Positions 1,211-17,134 of a stretch of 64,000 nt of DNA are shown here, one piece after another. The position numbers and the translations under genes are program-made. The notes under the pieces were generated by a model, which made no database searches, was not told where the DNA came from, and was given only the letters and a program-made list of their open reading frames with translations. Source of the DNA: Oxalobacteraceae bacterium. Its GTDB lineage: Bacteria; Pseudomonadota; Gammaproteobacteria; Burkholderiales; Burkholderiaceae_D. The stretch is taken from NCBI GenBank assembly GCA_947374865.1, contig CANCDR010000002.1:124001-188000 (forward strand), read 5' to 3'. The stretch's first letter is position 1. Every line of letters starts with the position of its first letter.

Positions 1211-1232
1211 TCATGTCAAGACCTGACCCCAC
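1136..1232. repeat. REP/MITE-like element with 24-bp perfect inverted repeats
   Basis: The left arm 1136-1159 (starting GTGGGGTCAGGTCTTGACAT) and the right arm 1209-1232 are exact reverse complements over 24 nt. They flank a 49-nt AT-rich core. No transposase is present. The right arm overlaps the 3' end of the TPR gene and encodes its final residues WGQVLT and its TGA stop. Terminal palindromes of this kind are typical of REP or MITE elements mobilised in trans, for example by REP-associated tyrosine transposases; assignment to that class is inference. No second copy was noticed in the window. Confidence 0.8.
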
Positions 1233-2125
1233 GCGTATTTTCCGGTGAGGCTGTTGGGGTCGAGCTTGAGTGCGCGGGTGATGTGTGCTTTTGCTTCGGT
1301 GGGGTGATCTTGCATCAGCAGGACGACTGCTAGCGCGCCATGACTATCTGCGAAATTATGATCTAGCGCTAAGGCATTTTCGAATGCGATGCGCGCTGCG
1401 GACAGATCGTTTTGTAACTCGCACCAGCCGAGCGCATGCCAGCTGCCGATATGCCTTGGCATGAGCTCGGTAGCTTTACGTAGCTGATTACGCGCTTCTT
1501 CGAATTTGTGTTCCATCATCGATGTCACCCCAGCGACCGACCAGGCTCGACCCTCTTGTGGGTAGTGATTGACTGCTTTTTCACTTAGCTTTTTTGCCTG
1601 CTGCAGATTCTTCTCAGCGAGCGCTGCAGTAGCACCGGCAACGAGTGCTTCGCGTTGCTCCGGCAAACTGCTGAGCGCCTGTTGGGACCACAGGCTGGCT
1701 AAATCCATTCGGTTCGCATCGACCGCCAGCAGACTGGCAACACCATAGGCATGATCGTTGATTCCATCCACATTGTTTGATGACACCAAACTTTCGAAGA
1801 GGGCCAGCGCTGCATCAATGTGACCTTGGCGGTGCATGCTGCGTAGGAGTAGGGGTAAGACCTTTTGTGATGTACCGTCCGTCTGCATTAGGCGCTGCAA
1901 AATAGTACAGACCGTTTCATCATGGCCGGCGAGGAAAGCGCTTTGTGCATACGCCAACAACAATCCTTGCGTATCCTGCGCATCCGTTTGCAGCGCGGTC
2001 TGCCATTCATGCAGATCCAGTGCCAGCGTCACAATATCTCTTTTTAAGGCGACGTTAAACGGATCGCTGGCCAGATAAATGCGGTAATTTTTTAAGCGAG
2101 CCTGTCGATGATCATTGGCGTCCAT
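1211..2125 (-). CDS. tetratricopeptide repeat protein with repeat-derived C-terminus
   Basis: This encodes 304 residues with several degenerate 34-residue TPR units. The clearest are around residues 185-290 (GRAWSVAGVTSMMEHKFEEA, then WHALGWCELQNDLSAARIAF, then DSHGALAVVLLMQDHPTEA). There is no signal peptide or membrane segment, so it is probably a cytoplasmic protein-interaction scaffold. An AAGGAAA ribosome site precedes the ATG. It follows the sigma-factor gene of the flagellar-type cluster in the same direction and may be its last gene; its role there is unknown. The last six residues and the stop codon come from a repeat arm, so the ancestral protein was probably longer or ended differently. 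Confidence 0.75.
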   Translation of the reverse strand: MDANDHRQARLKNYRIYLASDPFNVALKRDIVTLALDLHEWQTALQTDAQDTQGLLLAYAQSAFLAGHDETVCTILQRLMQTDGTSQKVLPLLLRSMHRQGHIDAALALFESLVSSNNVDGINDHAYGVASLLAVDANRMDLASLWSQQALSSLPEQREALVAGATAALAEKNLQQAKKLSEKAVNHYPQEGRAWSVAGVTSMMEHKFEEARNQLRKATELMPRHIGSWHALGWCELQNDLSAARIAFENALALDHNFADSHGALAVVLLMQDHPTEAKAHITRALKLDPNSLTGKYAWGQVLT

Positions 2126-2283: not shown

Positions 2284-3009
2284 TTACCAACGAATAAACA
2301 GGGGATCCGGTTTCTCCAATAGTCGTCGCAAATGTATCAGCCCCTGATAATGTAATTGCGACACACGCGGTCGGCTGATGGCGAGCTGTTCGGCGATTTC
2401 ATCAAATCGTATACCTTGAAGGTAGTAGCGTTGGATGACCTGTCGTTCGCGTTCGGATAACTGCTCGATGAGGCTCACCAGCCGACGTTTAAATCGTTTG
2501 AGTTCAAATTGCTCACCCTGCTGATCTGGCAGACTTTGTCCCAGGTCGATGAGTCCCTGTGCGCCGTCCAGCAAAGCACCCAAGGCGAGACTGATGCCGA
2601 CTTCTGCCAGACAGGCAAACCAATGGCCGATATTTGTTGCGGCAGGTGAATTCGCCTCCTCTGGCACCGTCAGGCGCTCACCGCTGTGTCGCTGCTGGGC
2701 TGAAATTTGCTGCTGTCTTTCGGTCTGGCGCGCTAATCCGCTGCGAATTGCACCGATCATCCGCTGCAACGCAAAAGTACGAAATTGCGCGCCGCGCTGC
2801 GGGTCATATCGATCGAGCGATTCGAGCAATGCCACGGATGCGATCTGTAGGTAATCATTAAACTCCACCGCATCATGGCGACGCACAGCATACAGTCTGG
2901 CTGCGACGATCCTGGCATACGGCAGATGCATGCGGATCAAGGCAGCACGGGCAGCCTGATCCCCTTGGGTGCACAGTCCCTGCCACAGCATATGTTCGCG
3001 AGTGTCCAT
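2284..3009 (-). CDS. fliA: flagellar-type RNA polymerase sigma factor (FliA/sigma28-like)
   Basis: This 241-residue sigma-70 family protein has the FliA layout. Region 2 lies around residues 25-95 (EFNDYLQIASVALLESLDRYD, then FRTFALQRMIGAIRSGL). Region 4 lies near the C-terminus (LSERERQVIQRYYLQG, then the helix-turn-helix AEQLAISRPRVSQLHYQGL). The segment between them (about residues 97-165) is longer and more divergent than in typical FliA, so region 3 is poorly recognisable. It sits 15 nt after fliP at the end of the basal-body cluster, which suggests a dedicated sigma factor for this system or its substrates. No flgM-like anti-sigma gene is nearby. Identity as the only FliA of the cell is unlikely to be decidable from this window. 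Confidence 0.8.
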   Translation of the reverse strand: MDTREHMLWQGLCTQGDQAARAALIRMHLPYARIVAARLYAVRRHDAVEFNDYLQIASVALLESLDRYDPQRGAQFRTFALQRMIGAIRSGLARQTERQQQISAQQRHSGERLTVPEEANSPAATNIGHWFACLAEVGISLALGALLDGAQGLIDLGQSLPDQQGEQFELKRFKRRLVSLIEQLSERERQVIQRYYLQGIRFDEIAEQLAISRPRVSQLHYQGLIHLRRLLEKPDPLFIRW

Positions 3010-3024: not shown

Positions 3025-3876
3025 CTAGTGAAACGAACCGACTAAGGCCTTCAGTATCAGGCTCCAGCCGTCAATCAAAATGAATAGTAAAATTTTCACC
3101 GGCAGGGAAATCGATACCGGCGGCATCATCATCATGCCCAGCCCCATCAGGATGCTCGAGACGATCAAGTCAATCAGCAGAAACGGTAAAAAAATGACGA
3201 AGCCAATCTGGAAGGCCGCGCGCAATTCCGAGAGCATGAAGGCCGGCACCAGCTGTACATTACGGATGTCTGCCATACTTTTTGGCGGTGGGGCTTTTGC
3301 CAGTTCAATCATCAGCGCCAGGTCTTGCTCGCGCGTTTGCCGAACCATGAATTCACGCAGCGGTTGAACGCCCTTTTCGTATGCTGTTTGCATGGGCATT
3401 TTTCCTTGCATGAAGGGCGCAAAAGCTGATTCGTCAATTTGTTTGAGTACCGGTGACATGGTGAATAGGGTCAGAAACAACGCTAGTCCGATGAGCACCG
3501 TATTGGGCGGCGTTTCCTGCATGCCGATCGCATGGCGCAGCATCGACAGCACAATGATGATGCGTAAAAATGATGTTAGTGATACCAATAATGCCGGCAG
3601 AATTGTCAGCAAACTCAAGCCGATAATGATGCGCATGGCCAGCGCGGTGTCCTGACTGGTGGCGCTGACTGGAGGCCTTTCAGAAGATTGAACCAGCGCA
3701 GATTTGACCAGCGCAGGTTCGGCCAGCGATGCGGTCAAGGACTCGACCGATGCGTTGATCACGCTGACAGGATCAGTCTCAGCGCCAGACGGCGCTACCG
3801 GACGCGCGATTGCGCAGGCGCTCGCCAGCGCGATCGCACAAAATAGCAATGCCGAGCGTAAGAGAGCGTATGTCAT
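3025..3876 (-). CDS. fliP: flagellar-type export gate protein FliP
   Basis: The protein has 283 residues. A cleavable-looking signal sequence (residues 1-24) and a variable segment lead into the conserved FliP core from about residue 75. Hallmarks are LTILPALLVSLTSFLRIIIV and LRHAIGMQETPPN, followed by the paired C-terminal helices (PAFMLSELRAAFQIGFVIFL, then MGLGMMMMPPVSISLPVKIL). FliP forms the core pore of the type III export gate with FliQ and FliR in the inner membrane. It overlaps fliO by 4 nt, as is usual for fliO-fliP. The length is at the long end for the family because of the N-terminal extension. Confidence 0.95.
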   Translation of the reverse strand: MTYALLRSALLFCAIALASACAIARPVAPSGAETDPVSVINASVESLTASLAEPALVKSALVQSSERPPVSATSQDTALAMRIIIGLSLLTILPALLVSLTSFLRIIIVLSMLRHAIGMQETPPNTVLIGLALFLTLFTMSPVLKQIDESAFAPFMQGKMPMQTAYEKGVQPLREFMVRQTREQDLALMIELAKAPPPKSMADIRNVQLVPAFMLSELRAAFQIGFVIFLPFLLIDLIVSSILMGLGMMMMPPVSISLPVKILLFILIDGWSLILKALVGSFH

Positions 3877-4397
3877 CGACCGTCTGCCTGATTTTTTTCA
3901 GCGGGATGACGATTGGTCACGGCATCGATATCGAGTGCAACATCAGATAGATGCTTCGCCGCCGATTGCGCATCACTTCCCTCCCGCGCTAATAAGCGCA
4001 CACCCTGCGATGAACAGGACAGCAGCAAACGTTCACCCTCCCATTCAACGCTGTGCAAGCTGGCACCTTGCGGCAATTGGCAGCTCGCTACGATTCGCAA
4101 TCGGGCATCAATTTTCTGGGTGAACCATGACCGCCAAGGAGTACGCCATGAAACTACCGCACTGGTGTGCAGCCCCTTGGAGCGAACGAACAATCGCAGC
4201 ACACACCCACCGAGCAGCAGCACACACAGTGCACCAATGATCCAGGGAGAAAAGATCAATGCTTCTTGCGCACTCTCACGCTTGAATGGCAACTCAGCAG
4301 GCAGCGCGCTTGCCTCGGCCTGGCAGACACGCACGATACCGGTGAGGAGACCTCCCACCACAAGATAATCAAATGATCGTTTCAACATAGTAGGCAT
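3873..4397 (-). CDS. fliO: FliO-like export gate assembly protein
   Basis: This 174-residue protein has an N-terminal hydrophobic segment that may be a signal sequence. One clear transmembrane helix follows (about residues 49-71, SPWIIGALCVLLLGGCVLRL), then a soluble domain of about 95 residues. Sequence conservation in FliO is weak. The call rests on topology, size and its place between fliN and fliP with a 4-nt overlap to fliP. In well-studied systems FliO is a scaffold that helps FliP ring assembly. An internal ATG four codons in is an alternative start. Confidence 0.75.
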   Translation of the reverse strand: MPTMLKRSFDYLVVGGLLTGIVRVCQAEASALPAELPFKRESAQEALIFSPWIIGALCVLLLGGCVLRLFVRSKGLHTSAVVSWRTPWRSWFTQKIDARLRIVASCQLPQGASLHSVEWEGERLLLSCSSQGVRLLAREGSDAQSAAKHLSDVALDIDAVTNRHPAEKNQADGR

Positions 4398-4880: not shown

Positions 4881-5723
4881 TTAATCCTGTGATTTTGACG
4901 AAGTAGAAACGCTCAGCAGACCCAACGCGCGATGCGCAGCTGACTGACCCAAATAGCCAGTGCATACGATGCTGCCATCGGCCGTGCAGACATCGAAGGG
5001 CTGCTCAAGTGCGTGGGTCAGACGCACCACAGCACCGGGAGTGAGTGACTGCAGGCTGCCAAGATCGAGTTTGATGTCGGCCAAGCTGACATAGAGCGGT
5101 ACCGCGATGGAATCGATTGCGTGAATAATGGGCGTGCGTTGACCGGCGCTTTGACCCTGCTGCCTAGCTGCCTTATGCGCTGGCTCGGCTGCCGGTTCCT
5201 GCGTAGGGGTCGCAAGCCATGCCTGCACTCGCTGCGACACCAGCTGCGGCGCCAAATGCAGCACCATTCCCTGCCATACGCCGTCAAATACCATCTGCAC
5301 CGAACCCGACCAGGCTTGCGCGTGATCGGCGGGCGGCGTGGATAGAATGAGCGTAGTGAGCTTATTCGAGGTCTTCTGCGTTGGCATTGACAGCAAGCCG
5401 CGCAAGGCAGCGCTGACCCGTAACAGCGCTTGCTCGACCACCTGCCGGGACAAGGCCGCGCCATCGGCATCATCAAACAGCGCAGTACTCAGATCCTTGC
5501 GTAATTGCGCGGAATAGCCCAGCCAGACTTGGTTCTCCAATCCCTGATCGGGCAATATGGCCTGCCATGCAAGCGTCGGATCAATCCAGCAGCAGGCATG
5601 CACAGTCGGCTTGGGCATAGGAAGTCCCCAAGCCTCACCGCATGACGAAAGCCCTGCCTCGACCGCTCGTGCAAGGGCATCGCGCTGTGTTTCACGCCAC
5701 CAGAGCAAGTTACGTACGGCCAT
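4881..5723 (-). CDS. fliM: divergent FliM-like C-ring protein, lacks CheY-binding N-terminus
   Basis: The protein has 280 residues, against roughly 330 for typical FliM. A recognisable SpoA domain occupies about residues 205-270 (AVPLYVSLADIKLDLGSLQS, then LTPGAVVRL). The preceding 200 residues occupy the place of the CheC-like middle domain but are strongly divergent. The N-terminal EIDALL-type peptide that binds phospho-CheY is absent, and the GGXG motif implicated in FliG contact is not seen. The start cannot move far upstream because flgE ends 2 nt away. The call rests on the SpoA domain and the gene order flgE-fliM-fliN-fliO-fliP. The layout also recalls injectisome SctQ proteins. Confidence 0.75.
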   Translation of the reverse strand: MAVRNLLWWRETQRDALARAVEAGLSSCGEAWGLPMPKPTVHACCWIDPTLAWQAILPDQGLENQVWLGYSAQLRKDLSTALFDDADGAALSRQVVEQALLRVSAALRGLLSMPTQKTSNKLTTLILSTPPADHAQAWSGSVQMVFDGVWQGMVLHLAPQLVSQRVQAWLATPTQEPAAEPAHKAARQQGQSAGQRTPIIHAIDSIAVPLYVSLADIKLDLGSLQSLTPGAVVRLTHALEQPFDVCTADGSIVCTGYLGQSAAHRALGLLSVSTSSKSQD

Positions 5724-5725
5724 CC

Positions 5726-6919
5726 TTATTTACTCTTCATGGCAAACAGTTCTTGCAGCATGTCGTTAGCAGTCGAGATTATTTGCGACGAGGCCTGATA
5801 TCCGCGCTGCAGGATCACCAGTTCACTAAAGGCCTGAGACAAATCGACATTCGACGTTTCCAGTGTGCCGCTACTGATGTCGCCAAAGCCGCCATCACCG
5901 GCCGCGCCACTGTGCCAGGCATGCGCATCGATGGCGTCAAATTCATTACCGCCTGCCTGGGCGATCGCATCGCTTGAATCAAAGCGGCCGAGCGCCAGTC
6001 GTATGCCCTTGACGGTCTGGCCGTTGGTATAGTTCAGAATCAGCGTGCCGCTGGCATCAAAGCTGGTTTTGCTTAAGTCGCCCGCTGCAAAGCCATCCTG
6101 ACTAATCACTTCCAGCGTCGACGCATTACCAGCCGCAAAGGACGTCACGTTATGACTAAAGTCGAGCGTGAGTTTTTGCGCTGCCTGACCGGCCGGTGTG
6201 TAGGTCAGATTCACCAGGGCCGATGCAGCAGTCGGCGTCGCGTCCGTAAAAATTAATGTGGCTGTGCCGGTACTGACTGCACCTTCCATGAGCGTCAGAT
6301 CCCAGCTATTCGGATTGGCAGCGCCGCTGGGTTTGAGATTAAGCGTCAGGTCATGCTTTACACCGGCTGCATCCAATACACTCAGACCACTGATATTCTG
6401 CTCGGTGGCTGTACTGGAAAGATTACCGCTCAATGCCACATTTTCAGTCGGCTTACCTGGCTGCATACGCAGTGCATTCAGGCTGATGGCAGACAGCTTG
6501 TGCGCTGAATCCATGCCCATCACCTGCGCACCATCGCTACGATTGACCAGCTGTCCGCTCTGATCAAACGCAAACTGGCCGGCCCTTGTGTAATGCAGTT
6601 TGCCTTGACTATCCTTGAGCGTGAATAACCCTTCACCATTGACAGCCAAGTCCAGCGCATTACCCGTCTGGCGCATTTCGCCCTGCTTAAAATTGAGACT
6701 GGTGCCATTCATCGTCAGGCCATTGCCGCCCTGCCCGGCCGATGCAGCATTCATGCCGGAGCTACCCTGGCCGCCGCCATGGGCAAACATGTCGGCAAAC
6801 TGTTGGGTCGATGCCTTGAATCCGGGGGTATTGAGATTGGCGGTATTGTTGGCGATAACGCGCAGTCCCTGAGCATAGCCATTCAGACCGGTCATGCCGA
6901 TATTAATTGAATCTAACAT
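5726..6919 (-). CDS. flgE: flagellar-type hook protein FlgE
   Basis: This 397-residue protein starts with the rod/hook signature (GMTGLNGYAQGLRVIANNTA, then NLNTPGFKAS). It ends with the matching C-terminal helix (SNVDLSQAFSELVILQRGYQ, then ASSQIISTANDMLQELF). Between them are the D1/D2-type beta-rich segments expected of a hook subunit (GEGLFTLKDSQGKLHYTRAG). FlgE is exported through the type III gate and polymerises on the distal rod under the FlgD cap. Length and both terminal coiled segments are normal, so a hook of ordinary type should be made. Confidence 0.93.
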   Translation of the reverse strand: MLDSINIGMTGLNGYAQGLRVIANNTANLNTPGFKASTQQFADMFAHGGGQGSSGMNAASAGQGGNGLTMNGTSLNFKQGEMRQTGNALDLAVNGEGLFTLKDSQGKLHYTRAGQFAFDQSGQLVNRSDGAQVMGMDSAHKLSAISLNALRMQPGKPTENVALSGNLSSTATEQNISGLSVLDAAGVKHDLTLNLKPSGAANPNSWDLTLMEGAVSTGTATLIFTDATPTAASALVNLTYTPAGQAAQKLTLDFSHNVTSFAAGNASTLEVISQDGFAAGDLSKTSFDASGTLILNYTNGQTVKGIRLALGRFDSSDAIAQAGGNEFDAIDAHAWHSGAAGDGGFGDISSGTLETSNVDLSQAFSELVILQRGYQASSQIISTANDMLQELFAMKSK

Positions 6920-6999: not shown

Positions 7000-7425
7000 T
7001 CAGCGGATCAGCGTAATCTGGCTCGGCGTAATACCTGTCAAACTTGCACCAGATTGTGTACTGATCGTTAAGCGCGGGCTGCCGCTGTCGAGCGCCAATG
7101 CGACCACAGTGCCACTCGCCGGTCCACCGGCGAGCGACACATCGACGCTTTTCCCCAGCAAACCCACCGAGAGCAAAGTAGCTTGCGAAGCGATCAGTGC
7201 ATCGAGCTTGGCGTTCCCCTCCTGTCCTTGCTGAACCAGGGTGGTCTGCATCATCTGCGTCATGAACTGCTGACTATCCATCGGCTTCATGGGATCCTGA
7301 TAGCTCAGCTGGGTAAGCAAGACCTTGAGTAAATCCTGCATGCCCATACCATTGGCTTGCAGACTTTGGGCTGCGCTGGGCGCGCTGGTGACATTGGTGA
7401 CATTAGCGATGCTATCGATGCTCAT
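7000..7425 (-). CDS. flgD: hook cap/assembly protein FlgD, short form
   Basis: This 141-residue protein carries the conserved FlgD N-terminal signature (LLKVLLTQLSYQDPMKPMDS, then QQFMTQMMQTTLVQQGQEGN). A short C-terminal part follows (residues 95-141: LGKSVDVSLAGGPASGTVV and so on). Typical FlgD has about 220 residues with a Tudor-like and an Ig-like domain, so most of the C-terminal module is missing or reduced. FlgD caps the growing hook. It overlaps fliK by 4 nt and precedes flgE, as in standard hook operons. Confidence 0.85.
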   Translation of the reverse strand: MSIDSIANVTNVTSAPSAAQSLQANGMGMQDLLKVLLTQLSYQDPMKPMDSQQFMTQMMQTTLVQQGQEGNAKLDALIASQATLLSVGLLGKSVDVSLAGGPASGTVVALALDSGSPRLTISTQSGASLTGITPSQITLIR

Positions 7426-8252
7426 ACAAACTCCTCTGGATTAAATTGAACGCGGGGGAACTCCTGCGGACTCTGCATGGCGTCGCGACTTTCGATATGC
7501 CGTGCTGGTGTATGTTCTTCGGGGTCGGCGTAAATTGCGCGACCATTACAAACCAGGGTGAGAAGTCGCACACCTTGCTCATTCAAACTTCGTACGAGCT
7601 GCGGCGCCAATTCGGTCGCTGATGCAGGATGCGACGAATCCATGCCACACCAAAGCCGCACACCTTCGAGGCCCCATTCAGCATGAATGCGTAATGTTTG
7701 CGCACTACCGGCTAGCGCGACTGGCTGCGAAACACGTAAGGCCGTGACTTCACCCGCGCGAATACTGTCCGCTACACTTGAATGATGCGCAGATAAACCT
7801 TGTGCAGTCGTCGCCGCTTGCGGAATCTGTGAACAAGCCGGACGCGGCACAATGGCCGGTAATGCGAAGCTGATGTGATCTATCGAACGCTGTTTTTTTT
7901 GCAGCGGCCATGCAGAAGATGCCGTCGAAGGAGACGCTAGGGTTGAATTAAAACGAGGATGGTCACCTGCCGCGACTGTTGCGACTGTTGCGACTGTTAA
8001 TGCCGTTGCGACCGATGAATCATGTATGACTAGCGGCGCTGGACATAAGGCCTGCAGCAGTGCATCTTGCCAGGCCTTGTCGAAGGCAGGTTTGTCTTTT
8101 TCACCTGGGGTAAATAAGGGCGCAGGCGTCACCGACATGCCAGGATCGCTCCCCACGGTAATCGCAGGCTCAGCAGTGGCCTTCAAAATAGCAGGTGACT
8201 GAAAATTTCCGCATCCCATGTTCGCGAGTCCGGCCATCAGTGCTTCCATCAT
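7422..8252 (-). CDS. fliK: FliK-like hook-length control protein
   Basis: This 276-residue protein is poorly conserved, as FliK proteins are outside their C-terminal domain. A strong AGGAGG site precedes ATG 8252. The N-terminal two thirds are low in complexity and contain a TVATVATVA stretch encoded by three perfect 9-bp repeats (7972-7998). The last 100 residues (TLRIHAEWGLEGVRLWCGMD, then LAPQLVRSLNEQGVRLLTL) fit the substrate-specificity-switch domain only loosely. The call rests mainly on position between fliJ and flgD with 4-nt overlaps on both sides. Confidence 0.65.
   Translation of the reverse strand: MMEALMAGLANMGCGNFQSPAILKATAEPAITVGSDPGMSVTPAPLFTPGEKDKPAFDKAWQDALLQALCPAPLVIHDSSVATALTVATVATVAAGDHPRFNSTLASPSTASSAWPLQKKQRSIDHISFALPAIVPRPACSQIPQAATTAQGLSAHHSSVADSIRAGEVTALRVSQPVALAGSAQTLRIHAEWGLEGVRLWCGMDSSHPASATELAPQLVRSLNEQGVRLLTLVCNGRAIYADPEEHTPARHIESRDAMQSPQEFPRVQFNPEEFV
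7972..7998. repeat. 9-bp tandem repeat (x3) inside fliK
   Basis: Three perfect copies of GCGACTGTT lie in frame and encode the Val-Ala-Thr repeat of the FliK-like protein. Expansion or loss would add or remove three residues at a time. Confidence 0.8.
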
Positions 8253-8722
8253 GCTGTGCCCTCCTCGGCCAGCAGACGCTGCGCGCGCAGGATCGTCTCG
8301 CTGTCAGTTTCGCGCGCTGACTTTTGCTTTGCCAGCGATGTTTGCAGATTCTGGCGGCGCTGGACGTCTTGCTCGAAAAGGCGTAGCCGCTGCTGTTGAT
8401 ATACACTTTTTAGCTGAAGTGATGCGTGATGATCTGTCGCCTCGCACAAACGAAGTTCCGTTTTTAAAAGCACGTTTTGTAGCGCCAATAAATACACCAA
8501 TCCCTGCTGGTAAGCGGCACTATCCATGCTGTCAAGACGCTGCTGATTCAAGCGAGCAGCGTGCAGCGTGTGTTTATCCTGCAGTTGCGTCATTGTCTGC
8601 TGCTCGCTCATCACAAGGCGCATGGCATGCGCGCGCTCAAGATCGAGCGCATCGCACTGCCAGCGCTGCCGGCGCTGCAATGCCTCAAGCAGATCTGCTC
8701 TACGCTGTGCCGTGGTCTTCAT
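8249..8722 (-). CDS. fliJ: FliJ-like export chaperone
   Basis: The protein has 157 residues from ATG 8722, a start that gives the ATGA overlap with the end of fliI. It is almost entirely helical and rich in Gln, Arg, Glu and Leu, consistent with a long coiled-coil hairpin (QRRADLLEALQRRQRWQCDA and LFEQDVQRRQNLQTSLAKQK). FliJ is the stalk-like component at the FliI ATPase that helps engage the FlhA gate. Sequence identity in this family is low. The assignment uses coiled-coil character, size and the fliI-fliJ-fliK order. Confidence 0.75.
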   Translation of the reverse strand: MKTTAQRRADLLEALQRRQRWQCDALDLERAHAMRLVMSEQQTMTQLQDKHTLHAARLNQQRLDSMDSAAYQQGLVYLLALQNVLLKTELRLCEATDHHASLQLKSVYQQQRLRLFEQDVQRRQNLQTSLAKQKSARETDSETILRAQRLLAEEGTA

Positions 8723-10053
8723 ACGGATTGCTCTGGAACGGCGGCCAGGATGTGCGACAGTTCTTGCCACGCCTGGGTGGTCAAAACGCCGCCCTCGACC
8801 TGGCTCAACCAGCGCAGCAGCGCCGGTTCCAGTGCCAGGGCCACATCGAGCACAGGATTCGATCCTGCCAGATAGGCACCGATATCCACCATGGGCCGAT
8901 GCCGTGCCAACAAAACTAGGTGTCGTCTTACCGTGGCTGCCAGCGCGTTTTGTTCAGGCGTGACTAATTGCGACATCAGGCGGCTGACGCTTTGTAATAG
9001 ATCGATCGCTGGATACTGTCCCTGATGTGCCAACTCTCGCGTAAGTACAATGTGACCATCCAACGCGGCGCGTAGATGATCGGCGACCGGTTCATTGAAG
9101 TCATCGCCCTCTACTAGCACCGTCAATAAACCGGTGATGGAGCCACCTCCAGCATCCGTTCCACAGCGCTCGCACAATTCGGGTAACTCAGCAAACACGG
9201 ACGGCGTGTAAGCGCGCGCACTAGGCGGCTCGCCCGCTGCTAAGCCGACTTCGCGCCGCGCCATGGCAAAGCGGGTCACCGAATCCATGGTCAGCAATAC
9301 CTGCTTGCCTCTGGCGCGAAAAAAATCGGCAATAGCCAAAGCAGCATACGTTGCGCGAACTCGCGCCAAGGCCGGCTGATCGGCAGTCGCGACCACCACC
9401 ACCGAGCGCGCCAGTCCCTCTGAGCCAAGCTGCTGCTCAATGAATTCACGCACCTCACGACCACGTTCACCGATCAGGGCAATCACGTTCAAATCCGCCT
9501 GCGCATGGCGGGTGATCATGCCCAGCAGGGTACTTTTTCCAACGCCACTACCGGCGAAAATGCCGATACGCTGTCCTTGGCCGAGCGTGAGCAGGCAGTC
9601 AATACTGCGCACACCAGTCTGAAAAATATGTCGAATCGGTGGGCGCTGCAGAGGATTGATGGGGGCGCCTTTGAGTGATCGGGTAGCCGTAGTGTGTGGC
9701 GCCGGCAGACTATCAAGCGGGCGACCAAATCCGTCGATCACGCGACCGAGCAAGGCTTCGCCGACACCGATGGTATCGGCTGCACCATCGGCTACTACCC
9801 GACAGCCGGCCCGAATACCTTGCAGTGGACCATACGGCATCAGACTCAACTGACTACCCGCCACACCGACGACTTCTGCGACGACTGCTGCAGCATTCTG
9901 CTCGCTCGGCCAGATACGGCACAGCTCACCGATCGCAGCGGCGGGGCCGGTCGATTCGATGCACAGGCCGCGAATACGGCTAACAACGCCGACTCTTTGG
10001 CGCAGCTTAGCCGAGGCGAGTGCGTGACGGTAGTCGGCGAATTTGGTCAGCAT
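8719..10053 (-). CDS. fliI: flagellum-specific type III export ATPase FliI
   Basis: This 444-residue ATPase resembles the F1 beta subunit. The Walker A motif is GSGVGKSTLLGMI (about residues 167-179), followed by GERGREVREFIEQ, the Walker B region KQVLLTMDSVTRFAMARREV, and the DGHIVLTRELAHQGQYPAID stretch typical of FliI/SctN. It hydrolyses ATP at the cytoplasmic face of the export gate to unfold and release substrates. All nucleotide-binding motifs look intact, so active export is expected. It overlaps fliH by 7 nt. Confidence 0.95.
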   Translation of the reverse strand: MLTKFADYRHALASAKLRQRVGVVSRIRGLCIESTGPAAAIGELCRIWPSEQNAAAVVAEVVGVAGSQLSLMPYGPLQGIRAGCRVVADGAADTIGVGEALLGRVIDGFGRPLDSLPAPHTTATRSLKGAPINPLQRPPIRHIFQTGVRSIDCLLTLGQGQRIGIFAGSGVGKSTLLGMITRHAQADLNVIALIGERGREVREFIEQQLGSEGLARSVVVVATADQPALARVRATYAALAIADFFRARGKQVLLTMDSVTRFAMARREVGLAAGEPPSARAYTPSVFAELPELCERCGTDAGGGSITGLLTVLVEGDDFNEPVADHLRAALDGHIVLTRELAHQGQYPAIDLLQSVSRLMSQLVTPEQNALAATVRRHLVLLARHRPMVDIGAYLAGSNPVLDVALALEPALLRWLSQVEGGVLTTQAWQELSHILAAVPEQSV

Positions 10054-10979
10054 GATGGGCCCATGTTGGCGCTCGCTACTTGCGTCGCTGACGTAGTAGG
10101 AGCGGTAGAGGTCGTAGGCGTTGCTGGAGTCGCGCTCATTGTTCGCACTAACAGCAGACTATCGCGCAAGGCCTCAAGCTGAATCTCAAAGCGGGCATCC
10201 AGACTGCCGGCAGGCGTATCAATGATGCAGCCGCCGAGCGCGATGCGCGCATCGGCCAGAAATGACATGCTGCTCTCGACACCGAGCTGCTGCAACATAG
10301 CCGCCGTATGCGGATCGTCCTGCAAACAGGCGATATCCTGCGGATGCAGACGAATCACCGCGACTGGCCGCGCACCCAGTTCAATGAGGGCCTGCTGAAC
10401 TTGGCCACGCACGGCTTGGGCCGACACACATATCTGACCGAGCATACGACACAGACTGGTGAAGACCAGATCGAGCATATCGTCTTCGACCAGTTCAAGC
10501 CGCTGGGCGATGGCAGCCGGCAGCTGCTGCAATAAGTGTTCGACCTGTTTGACGCGCGTTTGCCATGCCTTTTCGGCGCCTTGTTCGCCTGCTAAAAATC
10601 CTGATTGATAACCTGCTGCATGGCCTGCTTCATTGCCTGCTTCATTGCCTGCTTCATTGCCGGCTTCATAGCCGGCTTCATAGCCTGCTTCATAGCCTGC
10701 TTCATAGCCTGCTTCATAGCCCTCATCGTGACCTGTTTTATAAGCTACTTGGTAGTCGTCTCGATAGCCTGATTGGTAGCCTTCTGCATGCGCTGTTTGA
10801 GCATGCAGCGACATCGATCTACCTCCAGCCGGGTCTGCCATAGATGCCACTGATGCACCAGATGGAATCAGTAGTTCACGCCGGCCTTGCATAAGGACTG
10901 CATGCAATACCGCGGCATGGCTTGACTGACCATGCAACAGAATCGCCGGCTGTGACGATCGTTTCTGCGTTGGCTTCAT
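10047..10979 (-). CDS. fliH: FliH-like ATPase regulator with extended GxxxG repeat
   Basis: This 310-residue protein has three parts: a variable N-terminus, a long central glycine-repeat helix, and a C-terminal domain resembling the V/F-type ATPase E subunit (about residues 165-280, DDMLDLVFTSLCRMLGQICV). The repeat (about residues 72-120) contains GYEA five times, then GNEA three times, then related units. Glycine at every fourth residue is the known FliH packing motif, but here it is unusually long and regular. FliH dimers bind FliI and link it to FliN. It overlaps both neighbours (fliG by 4 nt, fliI by 7 nt). Confidence 0.85.
   Translation of the reverse strand: MKPTQKRSSQPAILLHGQSSHAAVLHAVLMQGRRELLIPSGASVASMADPAGGRSMSLHAQTAHAEGYQSGYRDDYQVAYKTGHDEGYEAGYEAGYEAGYEAGYEAGNEAGNEAGNEAGHAAGYQSGFLAGEQGAEKAWQTRVKQVEHLLQQLPAAIAQRLELVEDDMLDLVFTSLCRMLGQICVSAQAVRGQVQQALIELGARPVAVIRLHPQDIACLQDDPHTAAMLQQLGVESSMSFLADARIALGGCIIDTPAGSLDARFEIQLEALRDSLLLVRTMSATPATPTTSTAPTTSATQVASANMGPSC
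10629..10724. repeat. 12-bp tandem repeat, eight units, inside fliH
   Basis: Eight consecutive 12-nt units of the type TTCAT(T/A)GCC(T/G)GC encode the GYEA/GNEA repeat of FliH on the minus strand. Several units are identical at the DNA level, which points to recent slippage or unequal recombination rather than old protein-level selection only. Confidence 0.9.
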
Positions 10980-11746
10980 GATTCTTCCTTCATTTTTTCG
11001 CGTGTACGTATCAGACGAAAAATGTGACGCTGTGTCAGCGCCAGTGTCCAGCGCAGACGATCAAGATAGGCTAGGCATCTCGACCTGGTCGCTGCAAAAT
11101 ACGATGCCGTTCTATCAGCGACAGCGTTCGGGCCAGCATTCGTATCAGCATCAACTTTAGTTCTACCATCCGCTTCCGCATGAGGCTTCGTATCCAACGC
11201 GGTTTTGGATGCCATCATCAACCTGACCTGTTCCGACAGCGCAGCCAGGACCGCCGATTTTATCGCCGCGGGAAAATCCTCAGAATCAGCCAATCGCTTT
11301 TCCAGCGCACTTCTTTTACTCGACTCCAGCCGCTGCAGCAGCGCCGCCTGCCAATGCCAGCTGGTACAGCGCAAGACCAGAGCGATCAGCAGCACCGGCT
11401 CGGCCTGCAGAATGCGCATCAGGTAGTGCCCCGGCGCCTGCTGTAAATAGGCGAGGTGACGTTGATCTTCATTGCAGGATTGAGTCGCCGACAGCGATTG
11501 CGCATTGAATTGTGCTTCGAATTCCGACGCTAATTTCCCCTGCAATGGCGCTTCAGGCAGATTGGCGGCAAGTTCTAGCAGCCGTGCATCGGCAGGCAGC
11601 CCGAGTCGCGTGAGCTCATCGAGCAAGACGGCTAAAGCATCTCGCTCACGCTGTGCAAGCTGCGCCAGTAACCAGCAACGTTCAGCCGGCGCAGTGGCAT
11701 GGAGTAGTAAGGCCGCCTGACGCAGACCTGTATCGCCGGTCATCAT
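10976..11746 (-). CDS. fliG: divergent, truncated FliG-like protein without torque domain
   Basis: The protein has 256 residues; ordinary FliG has about 330. Residues 6-50 (GLRQAALLLHATAPAERCWL and onward) resemble the FliG N-terminal FliF-binding domain. Residues 108-170 (YLMRILQAEPVLLIALVLRC, then LLQRLESSKRSALEKRL) match the FliG middle domain, whose usual core is EHPQTIALIL. The remaining 75 residues are a hydrophilic linker and a basic helix. No FliG C-terminal domain with its charged torque helix is present. The gene sits between fliF and fliH with 4-nt overlaps at both ends, the normal FliG position, so truncation by a neighbouring insertion is not the cause. The same slot holds sctK in injectisome clusters. 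Confidence 0.7.
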   Translation of the reverse strand: MMTGDTGLRQAALLLHATAPAERCWLLAQLAQRERDALAVLLDELTRLGLPADARLLELAANLPEAPLQGKLASEFEAQFNAQSLSATQSCNEDQRHLAYLQQAPGHYLMRILQAEPVLLIALVLRCTSWHWQAALLQRLESSKRSALEKRLADSEDFPAAIKSAVLAALSEQVRLMMASKTALDTKPHAEADGRTKVDADTNAGPNAVADRTASYFAATRSRCLAYLDRLRWTLALTQRHIFRLIRTREKMKEES

Positions 11747-13296
11747 GACGGCCTCTGCTGAAGTGGTGTCTGGAGCGGAGACTGGGATGAAGCGTGAAGT
11801 GAAGGCTGCGCAGGCTGAGATGCAGCCTGCGGTGGGTGCTGCATGCTCTGCTGAATGTCATTCTGCGCTACATGAGAATCCCCCGCAGATGCAGTATCAC
11901 TTCGCAGCCAGCAACGCAGCTGCGCCAAGACAGCCTTACGTTGTGCTGCAGATAAGTTCGTTCGACGTTTGCGCTGCAAAATAATCAAACTAACGAGGAT
12001 TATCACGATTGCCATCACGCTCAACAAACCCGTCATAATTTTTGCCGAGTCCGTGGGCAGCATCACCGGCCGATCTAATTCAATCGGCAACGCAGAAGAA
12101 CGCACCTGGGCCGGGATGTCACTAACATCCTCAGCCCGAACCAGCGGATGTGCCATCGCCTGCACCACCACCGTATCGCCGCGTTCGGGTACTGCGCCGG
12201 CCGCTGCCGCCAGCGTGTCACAGAGTTGCGTGATCTGCCCGGCATCTAGCGCATGCCACACCACCGCCACCACATGCAGTCGCCGAATGGCACCCGGCGC
12301 AGAAACGACCTGTTCGATGCGCCGGCCAGTCTGATAATCTACCTCCCGCTGCGAACTACCATTTTTTGCTTTGCCATCATCGGGTGCTGCATCATGTAGT
12401 GTCTCGCGTTCGCGTACCATGACACCGGTCGGAATCTGTCCCTGCGACACCGGCGTGCCCAGCACTTCTTCGGTCGTAGTACGCACCTGATCCATATTCA
12501 AGCTCACATCCACACTGGCCATGGCCTGCGCTTCGCCAAAGGTTCGCGTAAGGACCAGATCAAGTTTATGGCGCAGATAATTTTCAGTTTCCTTCTGCAG
12601 ATCCAAGCGATGCGAACTAGCCGCGCCATCGCCGTCTGCCTGTGCTGCGCGTGTGAGCGCCACGCCCTGCTGATCGACGATCGTGACATCCGACGCGCTA
12701 ATGCCGGGAACTGCGGCAGCGACCAGACCCTGAATACCCGCCACCTGCTCACTGCGCAGGCTTTGATGGTGTTTCATGTTCAGGGTGATGGCGGCCTTGG
12801 CCTTGCTATTGGCGCGCTTGAACAAACCTTCTTCTGGCAGCGCCAGATGAACCCGTACATCCGCTACTTCCGCGAGCGACAAGATGGTTCGCGTCAACTC
12901 GCCTTGTAAAGCACGCTGATAATTAATTTTTTGGGCAAATTCCGTCATGCCAAAGTCGGCGTTATTGAATAATTCAAAGCCGACCGTACCGTGCAAGGGA
13001 ATGTCCTTACCCATGAGTTTGATGCGGGTCTGATGCAGAATATCTTTTTCGACCAGAATGACCGTGCCAGAAGCACCCGGTGCCAATTTATGCGGGATCT
13101 TCATCCGCTCGAGTTCTGCCACCATGGCCGCCGTATCTTGCGCTGTCAGGTCAGAAAATAAGGCTTGATAATCGGTACTGAATAGCCACACACTCAGTCC
13201 GATCACCATTACAAGGATCAGCCCCAGTCCGCACACGAGGCCAGCACGCGCCGCTCGCGAGAGTCCTTGCCAAAATTCTGCACACACCTTCAACAC
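11743..13296 (-). CDS. fliF: MS-ring protein FliF
   Basis: This 517-residue protein starts at GTG 13296, six nt after an AGGAG site; no in-frame ATG lies close by. It has an N-terminal transmembrane helix (residues 19-39), ring-building motifs (DYQALFSDLTAQDTAAMVAE, then GTVGFELFNNADFGMTEFAQ and YQRALQGELTRTILSLAEV), and a second transmembrane helix around residues 420-442 (MTGLLSVMAIVIILVSLII). The cytoplasmic tail includes LRCWLRSD, similar to the FliG-binding motif, and then a Gln/Ser/Pro-rich end of about 45 residues. FliF forms the inner-membrane ring that houses the export gate. Confidence 0.93.
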   Translation of the reverse strand: MLKVCAEFWQGLSRAARAGLVCGLGLILVMVIGLSVWLFSTDYQALFSDLTAQDTAAMVAELERMKIPHKLAPGASGTVILVEKDILHQTRIKLMGKDIPLHGTVGFELFNNADFGMTEFAQKINYQRALQGELTRTILSLAEVADVRVHLALPEEGLFKRANSKAKAAITLNMKHHQSLRSEQVAGIQGLVAAAVPGISASDVTIVDQQGVALTRAAQADGDGAASSHRLDLQKETENYLRHKLDLVLTRTFGEAQAMASVDVSLNMDQVRTTTEEVLGTPVSQGQIPTGVMVRERETLHDAAPDDGKAKNGSSQREVDYQTGRRIEQVVSAPGAIRRLHVVAVVWHALDAGQITQLCDTLAAAAGAVPERGDTVVVQAMAHPLVRAEDVSDIPAQVRSSALPIELDRPVMLPTDSAKIMTGLLSVMAIVIILVSLIILQRKRRTNLSAAQRKAVLAQLRCWLRSDTASAGDSHVAQNDIQQSMQHPPQAASQPAQPSLHASSQSPLQTPLQQRPS

Positions 13297-13360: not shown

Positions 13361-13657
13361 TTAAATCGACATCTTCATGACATCCTGGTACGCCTCCAGC
13401 AGTCTGCTGCGCACTTGTAAGATCAGCTGTAATGCCGTGCGGGTCTCCTCCATCTGGATCATGGTTTGATGCAGGTTCTGCGTCTCGCCCAGTGCCAGCG
13501 ACTGCAGCGTGGCTTGGCTTTGCATGAGCTGCGAATTAACCTGTTCCAGCCCCTGCGTGACCATGTTGCCAAAGCTCGAAGCGGGCGCTGTCAGCAGGCG
13601 GATGACGCTCGGATCAGCCTCAATAGCGGCGATGCTGGCGATCGCTTGCGGGCTCAT
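13361..13657 (-). CDS. fliE: MS ring-rod junction protein FliE
   Basis: This encodes 98 residues, the normal FliE size. The C-terminal helical region (LHQTMIQMEETRTALQLILQ, then VRSRLLEAYQDVMKMSI) carries the family signature, including the final YQDVMKM segment. FliE connects the MS ring to the proximal rod and is an early export substrate. It overlaps flgC by 4 nt in the common flgBC-fliE arrangement. Confidence 0.9.
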   Translation of the reverse strand: MSPQAIASIAAIEADPSVIRLLTAPASSFGNMVTQGLEQVNSQLMQSQATLQSLALGETQNLHQTMIQMEETRTALQLILQVRSRLLEAYQDVMKMSI

Positions 13658-14070
13658 GTCGCACCACCGATCTCGAGCGCCTTTTGTGCCATCGTCCGCG
13701 CTGCATTCATGGCGGCGATATTGGCCTCGTAGGCACGCAAGGCGCTCATCATGGTCAGCATTTCATTTGCAGTATCGATGCCCGGATAAGCCACCAGGCC
13801 GCGCGCATCGGCAAACGGATGACCCGGCTCTTGCACCATGCGCGGTGCAGCACCGCTGGGCTCAATCGTGACTTGCGCAGCATTCGGCATACCGTTCGCC
13901 ATCAGCGCACCGAAACTGCTGCGTGCAATCACGCGCATGGGCGCATACGCCGTTGCCCCGGGCTCAGCCACGGTATGGGTATTGGCCAGATTGAGCGCCG
14001 TTACTTCTAGCCGCAGCCGCTCGATGTCCATGCCGGCGGCACTGATGGCAAATGCCTGTCGATAATCCAT
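13654..14070 (-). CDS. flgC: proximal rod protein FlgC
   Basis: The protein has 138 residues. The N-terminal rod motif is present (FAISAAGMDIERLRLEVTAL, then NLANTHTV), as is the C-terminal motif (YPGIDTANEMLTMMSALRAY, then EANIAAMNAARTM). These termini pair as the coiled coil found in rod and hook subunits. Size and both signatures are normal. It lies between flgB and fliE. Confidence 0.93.
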   Translation of the reverse strand: MDYRQAFAISAAGMDIERLRLEVTALNLANTHTVAEPGATAYAPMRVIARSSFGALMANGMPNAAQVTIEPSGAAPRMVQEPGHPFADARGLVAYPGIDTANEMLTMMSALRAYEANIAAMNAARTMAQKALEIGGAT

Positions 14071-14114: not shown

Positions 14115-14150
14115 TTACTTAAGCTGACCTTACTTAAGCTGACCTTACTT
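14115..14150. repeat. 15-bp tandem repeat between flgB and flgC
   Basis: Two perfect copies of TTACTTAAGCTGACC (14115-14129, 14130-14144) and a partial third (TTACTT) reach into flgB. The third copy supplies the TAA stop codon of flgB (14145-14147). Confidence 0.85.
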
Positions 14151-14528
14151 CTTGCCTTCACTGATCGCGCTCGATAAAAGTGCAAAATGTTTGTTGAGCC
14201 CCTTGATTAAGGCCTGATAATGCAAGGTGTTTTGTGCCAGTTTTGCCACTTCAGCATCCAGCGGACTTGGCCCCTGTTGGCGGGGAAAATTCGCCATTGG
14301 CGTCATCTTTAGCTGCACATCGGCGAGCGAAAAGGCATCCACCGATCCATTCCTGCGCAAGCCATCCCGGGCTTGCAATAATTGCGTCTCGAATGCCACT
14401 TCCTGCGGCTGGTAATCGATCACATCGGCATTGGCGATATTGCTGGCGATTGCCTGCTGGCGCAGACTGGCGGCATCCAGCGCGAGTGACAGCGTCGCGG
14501 TCGTCATCGCTTCGATTCCTGCAAACAT
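14145..14528 (-). CDS. flgB: proximal rod protein FlgB
   Basis: This encodes 127 residues and has the FlgB signature (SLRQQAIASNIANADVIDYQ, then PQEVAFETQLLQARDGL). The C-terminal helix (DAEVAKLAQNTLHYQALIKG, then LNKHFALLSSAISEGKK) is also typical. Length is normal. It starts a flgB-flgC-fliE-fliF run. Its stop codon is formed by a short tandem repeat. Confidence 0.92.
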   Translation of the reverse strand: MFAGIEAMTTATLSLALDAASLRQQAIASNIANADVIDYQPQEVAFETQLLQARDGLRRNGSVDAFSLADVQLKMTPMANFPRQQGPSPLDAEVAKLAQNTLHYQALIKGLNKHFALLSSAISEGKK

Positions 14529-14589: not shown

Positions 14590-15726
14590 CTACTGAATTC
14601 GCAGTTCGGCATGCATGGCGCCGGCTGCCTTGAGCGCACGCAGGATGGAAATCATGTCGCGCGTATTGATTTTCATCTTCGCTAATACCTGCATCAAATC
14701 GGCGACCGTGGTCTGGCCAGGCGCGACGAATCCAGGCACCTCCTGTTCTTCCACCTTGATCTGACTATTCGCCAAAATCGCCGTGCGCACACCCTCTCCT
14801 GTGTGGCTCACCAGAATGGGTTGAGAGGCGGTGTTTTGCGTTGTAATGGCAATTTTCAAGTCCCCATGCGCGATGGCGACCGGCGCAATGCGTACATCAC
14901 CGCCAGCCACCACGGTCCCGGTGCGTTCATTGATGACGACGCGTGCGCGGCGATCCGGATCGACCTGAACGTTTTCTATGCGCGCTAAAAATTCCACCAT
15001 GTGTGGCTGATTTTTCTGTGGCACCTGAATCAGAATGCCGCTTGCATCGTGGGCTTCGGCCAGTGTTTCACCGAACTGGCTATTGATCGCCTGCGCTACT
15101 TTGCTGGCGGTGCCATAATCAGCTTCGGTGAGCACGAACATGACGCTCTGCTCAGGGGTCAACATCTGCGCCGTAACGCCTACCTCCACCACGGCACCGC
15201 CAGGAATCGTGCCAACCGTCGGATGATTTTTTTGCACCACATTGCCGTTCGCGTCATACCGATAGCCGCCGACCGACAAAGCCCCCTGTGCCAAGGCATA
15301 CACCCGTCCGTTGGCCGCCTTGAGCGCTGTTTGCAGTAGCGTGCCGCCGACCAGACTGCGCGCATCGGCACTGGAACTGACGCTCACATCCACCACATCG
15401 CCTTCCCGTGCAAAGGGCGGCAAGGAAGCCGACACCATCACGACAGCCACGTTACGACTTTGAATTTGCTCGGGTGGCAAACTTAAATTGAACTGTGCCA
15501 GCACATTTGACAAGGCCTGACGCGTAGCGCGATTCGTAGAGGTGTCGCCAGTGCCAGCAAGACCACTCACCAGACCGTAGCCGACCAGCGCGTTCTCGCG
15601 CCAGCCCTGCAGTTTGCCCAGGTCTTTGACGCGCATGCTCTGCCCGGCAGCAGCGCTCAAAGAAAATACGAGCCCAAGAAGCATGACATAGCGCTCAAGA
15701 CGGATGAACGTAAACAGATTCGCCAT
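14590..15726 (-). CDS. flgI: P-ring protein FlgI
   Basis: The protein has 378 residues from ATG 15726, chosen because it overlaps the flgH stop and gives a signal peptide (MLLGLVFSLSAAAGQSMRVK region). Family motifs include GYGLVSGLAGTGDTSTNRAT, NVAVVMVSASLPPFAREGDV and the C-terminal DLMQVLAKMKINTRDMISIL, then RALKAAGAMHAEL. FlgI is secreted by the Sec route and forms the periplasmic bushing around the rod in peptidoglycan. The P-ring chaperone gene flgA is not in this window. Everything visible looks intact. Confidence 0.95.
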   Translation of the reverse strand: MANLFTFIRLERYVMLLGLVFSLSAAAGQSMRVKDLGKLQGWRENALVGYGLVSGLAGTGDTSTNRATRQALSNVLAQFNLSLPPEQIQSRNVAVVMVSASLPPFAREGDVVDVSVSSSADARSLVGGTLLQTALKAANGRVYALAQGALSVGGYRYDANGNVVQKNHPTVGTIPGGAVVEVGVTAQMLTPEQSVMFVLTEADYGTASKVAQAINSQFGETLAEAHDASGILIQVPQKNQPHMVEFLARIENVQVDPDRRARVVINERTGTVVAGGDVRIAPVAIAHGDLKIAITTQNTASQPILVSHTGEGVRTAILANSQIKVEEQEVPGFVAPGQTTVADLMQVLAKMKINTRDMISILRALKAAGAMHAELRIQ

Positions 15727-16328
15727 CAGAAGCCCATCCAGTCGGCAAATCGGCGCCACCAGCTGCGCCTTTGACGTTCACTCAAATCGCCATCTCCCAA
15801 ATAGGTAATCCGCGCATCGGCCAGCCGATTCGATAGCAGCAGATTGCCATCCGAAATATCCTGCGCGCGTACCCGCCCTTCCAGGCTGATGCGCTGTCGT
15901 TCTTCGTTTAAGATGAGGAGCTGTTCCCCGGCGACGCGCAGATCGCCATTGGCCAACACTTCCGTTACCGTCACGCTCAGTTGCGCGAGTAATTTGCCAT
16001 TGCGCTGGGTCCGTCCACCGCCATCGAAATCGCCAGCTACGCTTAGGTCTGCTGCTGCGCGATGGTCGCCATGCTGCAGCGCGCCGGCTAAAGAATTTTT
16101 ACGCCGGGTGCTGGTATCTGAATTGGTCGATGCGCTGGCGCTCTCGAGTACCTGCACCGTCAGAACGTCTCCCACACGATAAGCCTTTTGGTCGGCAGTC
16201 AGGGGTCGGTAGGATTTTTCATCGTACAGGCTGGTGCCGGGCGCATTCAGCGCGAGCACGGGTGCACCCAGACCCAGCGTCAAGGACAAAAGAGTATCCA
16301 ACAAAAATAAAATGAAATAGGTACGCAT
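15726..16328 (-). CDS. flgH: L-ring protein FlgH
   Basis: This encodes 200 residues with an N-terminal hydrophobic export signal. Family motifs are YRVGDVLTVQVLESASASTN, FDGGGRTQRNGKLLAQLSVT and VRAQDISDGNLLLSNRLADA, then RITYLGDGDL. FlgH is normally a lipoprotein of the outer membrane ring. A canonical lipobox cysteine is not obvious in the first 30 residues, so lipidation is uncertain. It ends by overlapping the first base of the flgI start codon. Confidence 0.92.
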   Translation of the reverse strand: MRTYFILFLLDTLLSLTLGLGAPVLALNAPGTSLYDEKSYRPLTADQKAYRVGDVLTVQVLESASASTNSDTSTRRKNSLAGALQHGDHRAAADLSVAGDFDGGGRTQRNGKLLAQLSVTVTEVLANGDLRVAGEQLLILNEERQRISLEGRVRAQDISDGNLLLSNRLADARITYLGDGDLSERQRRSWWRRFADWMGF

Positions 16329-16354
16329 AGTGAATCGATGGGCTTAGGGGCTTC

Positions 16355-17134
16355 CTACTTACGCAGGTTATTAATCAGCGACGCCATTTCGTCTGCCGCC
16401 TGCACTGCCTTGACACTAGCTTCGTAGGCACGCTGGGCAATCATCAGGCTGACCATTTCATCGACCATCTTGACGTTCGACGATTCCAACATACCCTGCA
16501 CAATGTTGCCGGCACCGTCCTCACCCGCCCGCACGGCCGTCGGTGAGCCCGATTCCTGACTGGCGCGGTACAGGTTGGCGCCAATTTCCGTCAATGCGCC
16601 GGGGCTGGCAAAGCGCACCAATTCGAGCTGACCGAGTTCGGTTTGCTGCGTTTGTCCGGGCAGGGATACCCGTACTCGCCCCTGGCTATCGATGCTGAGT
16701 GCCTGGGCGTTTTCAGGGACTAAAATTTCTGGCCGCATGATCTGCCCGGTCTGTGTTGTCAGCAGACCATCCGCACTACGCTTTAAGCTGGCGCCGCGGG
16801 TATAAGCCAGTGATCCGTCTGCTAACACTACCTCCAGCATGCCTTCGCCCTGAATTGCCACATCCAAGGCTGATCCGGTTTGTTTGAGTTCTCCGCCGTC
16901 GAATATTCGTCCACCTTGAATACCGCGCACACCGAGTCCAATGCTGGTGTTATGGATGCTGCCCTCACTACCGACAGCCTGACTCACGCTGGTTTGCATA
17001 AGCAGATCAGAAAAATGCACGCTTGATTTTTTGAATCCCGGCGTATTGACGTTCGCCAGATTATTGGCGATGGTCTCGACCTGTAACTGCTGGCTTTGCA
17101 TGCCGGTGGCACCGATGTAAAACGCATTATTCAT
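16355..17134 (-). CDS. flgG: distal rod protein FlgG
   Basis: This encodes 259 residues, the usual FlgG size. The N-terminal signature is YIGATGMQSQQLQVETIANN, then LANVNTPGFKKS. The central part contains GEGMLEVVLADGSLAYTRGA, and the C-terminus GMLESSNVKMVDEMVSLMIA, then QRAYEASVKAVQ. FlgG builds the distal rod that crosses the P and L rings. Its presence with FlgE, FlgH and FlgI means the structure should cross the outer membrane. Confidence 0.95.
   Translation of the reverse strand: MNNAFYIGATGMQSQQLQVETIANNLANVNTPGFKKSSVHFSDLLMQTSVSQAVGSEGSIHNTSIGLGVRGIQGGRIFDGGELKQTGSALDVAIQGEGMLEVVLADGSLAYTRGASLKRSADGLLTTQTGQIMRPEILVPENAQALSIDSQGRVRVSLPGQTQQTELGQLELVRFASPGALTEIGANLYRASQESGSPTAVRAGEDGAGNIVQGMLESSNVKMVDEMVSLMIAQRAYEASVKAVQAADEMASLINNLRK

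Follow-up and report, generated by a model that had tools for sequence, protein, structure and literature searches.

The DNA examined here, a stretch of 64,000 nucleotides (nt) of an Oxalobacteraceae bacterium (contig CANCDR010000002.1, positions 124,001 to 188,000; hereafter the window), contains a single minus-strand flagellar gene cluster at 1211-22211. Its genes run in the order fliQ, fliR, flhB, flhA, flgF, flgG, flgH, flgI, flgB, flgC, fliE, fliF, X, fliH, fliI, fliJ, fliK, flgD, flgE, fliM', fliN, fliO, fliP, a sigma factor and a TPR protein; all have open reading frames, and those for the rod, the hook, the L and P rings and the flagellar export gate are kept. Between fliF and fliH lies X, exactly at 10976-11746 on the minus strand, coding for 256 amino acids (aa) from an ATG start with no internal stop. 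X is a FliG with its N-terminal and middle domains and without the torque domain.

A FliG trimmed to its ring-building domains

A sequence-only reading of this DNA had proposed that X resembles the first two domains of FliG, and several comparisons agree with it. Pfam FliG_M matches residues 109-179 of the window protein at 18.3 bits, under the 25-bit cut-off, and matches 14 of the 79 X members collected from related loci. In hhalign, the 79-sequence alignment paired with a FliG alignment at a probability of 90% (E 1.5e-6), over FliG residues 3-184 only, and the member from Ralstonia sp. A12 was similar to canonical FliG residues 2-155 by BLAST alone (E 4e-9), with EPPQ replacing the EHPQ of FliG. 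An earlier profile of eight sequences had given only chance matches against PDB, and the best matches of the 79-sequence profile were FliG (2.4e-4). NCBIfam yielded no family for X.

The AlphaFold2 model of X has two confident domains, at residues 4-62 and about 90-180 (block predicted local distance difference test scores mostly 91-97), beyond which come a linker and one isolated helix (207-255), both predicted with low confidence. Its top structural match is full-length FliG, with the alignment limited to FliG residues 5-196; the FliG_N structure 5wuj superimposes on X residues 3-66 (Z 6.7, root-mean-square deviation 3.5), and FliG_M of 4qrm on residues 103-177 (Z 9.5, deviation 2.7 over 75 residues).

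FliG_C had no Pfam match in the window protein or in any of the 79 members, even at E 0.1, and the AlphaFold2 model contains no confidently folded domain past residue 186, so that the charged FliG_C-like fold which might have been hidden in residues 180-256 is absent from the prediction. In the window protein these residues are mostly lineage-specific padding; the tail common to the relatives is short and basic and contains a tryptophan (94% of members), the last 25 residues of members averaging 5.4 lysines and arginines against 1.1 aspartates and glutamates. A rotor built on X would not be expected to generate torque, and the absence of the torque domain supports the earlier statement to that effect.

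The cluster comprises the following features.

10976-11746, minus strand: X, FliG cut to N and middle domains, 256 aa, without FliG_C (Pfam, BLAST, profile and structure comparison)
11743-13296, minus strand: fliF, MS-ring protein; a conserved C-terminal L..(V/L)R.W segment is the presumed X-binding end
10047-10979, minus strand: fliH, stator of the export ATPase
8719-10053, minus strand: fliI, export ATPase
8249-8770, minus strand: fliJ-like, by position only, no Pfam match
7422-8252, minus strand: fliK-like, mainly by position; a relative is present in locus L028
7000-7425, minus strand: flgD, hook cap, conserved across related clusters
5726-6919, minus strand: flgE, hook protein
4881-5723, minus strand: fliM', FliM middle domain and SpoA domain without the N-terminal CheY-binding segment
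4398-4877, minus strand: fliN (SpoA)
3873-4397, minus strand: fliO
3025-3876, minus strand: fliP, export gate, 48% to canonical FliP
2284-3009, minus strand: sigma factor of FliA/WhiG type, below the NCBIfam cut-off
1211-2125, minus strand: TPR protein, conserved at the cluster end, possible chaperone
13361-13657, minus strand: fliE
13654-14070, minus strand: flgC, rod
14145-14528, minus strand: flgB, rod
14590-15759, minus strand: flgI, P ring
15726-16328, minus strand: flgH, L ring
16355-17134, minus strand: flgG, distal rod
17168-18046, minus strand: flgF, rod
18027-20069, minus strand: flhA, export gate
20070-21161, minus strand: flhB, export gate, with NPTH autocleavage motif
21164-22018, minus strand: fliR, export gate
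21945-22211, minus strand: fliQ, export gate, first gene of the cluster

The NPTH motif of FlhB is retained in 51 of 62 cases. The TPR protein gave weak, sub-threshold matches to the type III chaperones LcrH/SycD and SctY. A flgA-sized gene, which several related clusters have between flgG and flgH, is missing from this place in the window (16328-16355), and the N-terminal part of FliH carries a near-perfect run of YEAG/NEAG repeats (10620-10760). A sigma-28-like promoter before the fliQ operon scored no better than in shuffled sequences. Many related clusters are accompanied by a small conserved gene of about 130 aa (IDPxxQLAALIRxQV... DDPxRxRKAFxxFLExVLL; L027 3-437, L030 5319-5780, L055 21074-21412 and about 25 other loci), a gene detected neither in the window nor in its nearest relative. 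Elsewhere, the source genome also has a canonical flagellar set: FliG with its C domain, FliF, flagellins and MotB.

Conservation of the short form and loss of motor and filament

A FliF-based scan, with one genome per species, found 336 relatives, and the analysis kept the best 80. Nearly all belong to Burkholderiales (Variovorax, Ramlibacter, Paracidovorax, Massilia, Pandoraea, Paraburkholderia and others), with one from Marinobacterium, and each of the 80 FliF proteins is nearer to the window FliF (median 50%) than to the canonical FliF of the source genome (29%). X comes after fliF in 79 of these loci, the remaining one stopping at a contig edge; the relatives are 156-236 aa long, and the 4-nt overlap with fliF recurs in 67 loci. 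By its sequences, with conserved motifs and 18-38% identity to the window protein across dozens of genera, X is a fixed, conserved family; about 3% of 399 sampled Burkholderiales carry it. X shares 4 nt with fliF and another 4 nt with fliH. Its intact frame and its overlap with both neighbours had already been taken as a sign that X is no simple mutation, and the recurrence of the short form, in 79 of 80 loci, bears this out.

A matching loss was found in FliM'. In its model, residues 6-175 align with FliM 44-230, the middle domain, followed by a SpoA domain, and the start of the protein corresponds to the end of the CheY-binding N-terminal segment of FliM. The CheY-binding motif was present in none of 75 FliM' relatives, upstream in-frame sequence included, with canonical FliM as a positive control. 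Thus, both the stator-facing part of FliG and the switch-signal part of FliM are gone, and the ring-holding parts are kept. A complete chemotaxis cluster (cheY, STAS, cheA, a methyl-accepting chemotaxis protein gene, cheW, cheR, cheD, cheB) nevertheless lies directly downstream on the same strand, to the left of window position 1 (C2:115620-123790; L002 11620-19790), despite the missing CheY-binding segment.

More than 100 cluster loci were searched by tblastn for FlgK, FlgL, FliD, FliS, FliL, FliC and FliG_C with no match to any of them, the search having a positive control for all except FliC. In five of 40 X-bearing genomes FliG_C was absent assembly-wide: Ramlibacter sp. WS9, Caenimonas sp. 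SL110, Variovorax sp. 770b2, Ramlibacter pallidus and Lacisediminimonas profundi. Genome-wide searches of these five hosts likewise yielded no flagellin-type protein and, by a plug search, no MotB; in the five comparison genomes FliG_C, flagellin and MotB were all found. The clusters of the five hosts are otherwise complete. The machine therefore persists where no flagellum can exist, and in these species torque cannot be supplied by a FliG acting in trans.

Giant RHS/YD-repeat proteins

Beside several clusters we found giant open reading frames, 4,600-5,200 aa in length, that share a conserved start, MVAIVSGNSLGL; across genomes, the giants range over about 4-6 thousand aa. Of 43 distinct X-bearing genomes, 40 contain such a protein by a profile of the conserved start, among them the source genome and all five without a flagellum, and in 17 of 34 genomes a giant starts within 30 kilobases (kb) of X on the same contig. 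Among the 399 Burkholderiales, 10 carry both, three X only and four a giant only (Fisher p 1e-14, with kinship ignored), and two of the four giant-only genomes turned out to have the same cluster next to it, the X slot being filled by a short, divergent gene (94 aa in one, 200 aa in the other). The X-slot gene of genome G232, of just 94 aa (L168 5814-6098), is reduced further than X and lies beside a giant RHS gene.

The giant of Ramlibacter pallidus carries RHS repeats as well as a LysM domain and ends in an HNH/EndoVII nuclease. The next gene overlaps it and belongs to the SUFU family, one of the immunity families that accompany polymorphic toxins (Imm-SuFu, PMC3482391). The source-genome giant is a 5,752-aa RHS/YD-repeat protein with the start MVALVSGLGLGLN (G000:C2:219380-237225; L164/L165), about 85-100 kb from the cluster on the same contig. 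Pfam left the C-termini of three other giants, that of the source genome among them, unrecognized. An overlapping 195-aa gene downstream of the source-genome giant is a possible immunity gene, with no Pfam match. On inspection of the sequence, the giant start has no obvious Sec signal.

These proteins share with the RHS/YD-repeat polymorphic toxins (Zhang et al., PMC3482391) the RHS repeats, a variable C-terminal toxin domain and an overlapping immunity-type gene (nuclease and SUFU in R. pallidus). They differ in their conserved start, MVAIVSGNSLGL, and in being linked to a flagellar-type export cluster rather than to type VI, type VII or two-partner secretion systems. They would presumably be toxic and serve against other bacteria.

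A probable non-rotating export machine and its alternatives

In flagella, the N domain of FliG clamps FliF and its middle domain binds FliM, and the C-ring parts that are retained here dock the export ATPase. We consider it likely that X serves as a static connector of MS ring and C-ring in a flagellar type III secretion machine that neither rotates nor bears a filament and that probably exports the giant RHS toxins. The N domain of X would hold FliF and its middle domain FliM', so that X would form a static link from the MS ring to a C-ring of FliM' and FliN. Having neither the FliG domain that meets the stator nor the CheY-binding end of FliM, this ring would produce neither torque nor switching, and its remaining role would be to dock the FliH-FliI-FliJ export ATPase beneath the FlhA/FlhB/FliPQR gate. 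The whole would amount to a filament-less hook-basal body serving as a type III secretion apparatus, whose likeliest late substrates would be the giant RHS/YD-repeat polymorphic toxins with their conserved non-Sec N-terminus.

Several points weigh against this interpretation. No clear giant was found with the start profile in three X-bearing genomes (G083, G389 and G478), and several others, including the source genome, have their giant on another contig or about 100 kb off. A sigma-28-like promoter before the giants scored no better than shuffles, the giant start bears no more than an apparent likeness to flagellin, and an RHS protein of 4,000-6,000 aa may not be able to pass a type III channel. 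In addition, the absences in the five flagellum-less hosts are read from assemblies without reported completeness.

A motor-less hook-basal body could instead serve another use, such as adhesion, a nanotube-like conduit or export of small proteins, with the giants leaving the cell by a different way. We regard this as rather unlikely, although loss of motor and filament stands independently of any cargo and would fit it, as would the few X-bearing genomes with no clear giant; the frequent adjacency of giants to X in a set where 40 of 43 genomes have them, the cluster next door in two genomes first scored as giant-only, and the lack of an obvious Sec signal all speak for a connection between the two. 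Far less probable is a second flagellum still rotating by means of canonical FliG and MotAB in trans. The source genome does have canonical FliG, flagellins and MotB elsewhere, but the five genomes with the cluster and with no FliG_C, flagellin or MotB contradict it, FliM' lacks the CheY-binding segment, and the place of FliG in the ring is already taken by X.

Even smaller is the chance that the cluster is a decaying one in which fliG was truncated by mutation: X is shorter than FliG and motor genes are missing, as decay would have it, but the conservation of the short form at 18-38% identity in dozens of genera, mostly with the same 4-nt overlap, contradicts it, and all cluster genes are open. 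We give equally little credence to X being a true SctK in an injectisome, to which the sequence-only reading had pointed on account of the slot. The slot between the MS-ring and FliH/SctL genes is the same and the adaptor role would be similar. However, fliF-X-fliH is the normal place of fliG, and the canonical fliG of the source genome also has fliF and fliH as its neighbours (contig C11). The structure and profile matches of X are to FliG, and no SctK appeared among its Pfam, PDB-profile or structure matches, these being general searches, none aimed at SctK directly. Moreover, FliF, FlhA and FliI score higher as flagellar proteins than as SctJ, SctV and SctN, and genes for rod, hook, FliE and the L and P rings are present.

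Comparison with known systems places the cluster close to the flagellum. X shares with FliG the N and middle domains, the gene place between fliF and fliH and a recognizable remnant of EHPQ, and differs from it in lacking the torque domain, in size (156-236 aa in the relatives versus about 330) and in its short basic tryptophan-containing tail. With respect to the flagellar switch complex (FliG-FliM-FliN), the FliM middle and SpoA domains and FliN are kept, while the FliG torque domain and the FliM CheY-binding segment are both absent. The injectisome is itself a flagellum-derived system without a motor, so a motor-less derivation is not new in principle (Abby and Rocha, PMC3459982). The window cluster is like it in being a flagellum-derived export machine without motor functions, with X in the SctK slot. 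Unlike it, the cluster keeps rod, hook and L and P rings, its export proteins score as flagellar, fliE, flgB and flgC are present where non-flagellar type III secretion systems lack them, and flgH and flgI would fill the outer-membrane role of the secretin (SctC). Motility was apparently lost here separately from its loss in the injectisome. The inner-membrane "hat" structure (PMC9380563) was set aside, having been reported in ordinary flagellar species. We found no published description of the system in a limited open-access library, and a lineage with rod, hook and outer rings, with trimmed FliG and FliM and with RHS giants alongside, appears to be new.

The chances are about even that this is a class of type III secretion system in its own right, and a widespread one. 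In this reading a flagellum gave up its motor and filament by a route independent of the injectisome, kept only the ring-building parts of FliG and FliM, and delivers giant RHS polymorphic toxins in bacterial competition. If so, nature would have taken from a flagellum exactly the parts for torque and switching and retained the rest as a working export machine, spread over dozens of genera that include species without any flagella. It would make C-ring parts that serve export alone accessible to testing, would constitute a second conversion of a flagellum to secretion, comparable to that of the injectisomes, and would suggest a route by which a large family of RHS toxins may be exported.
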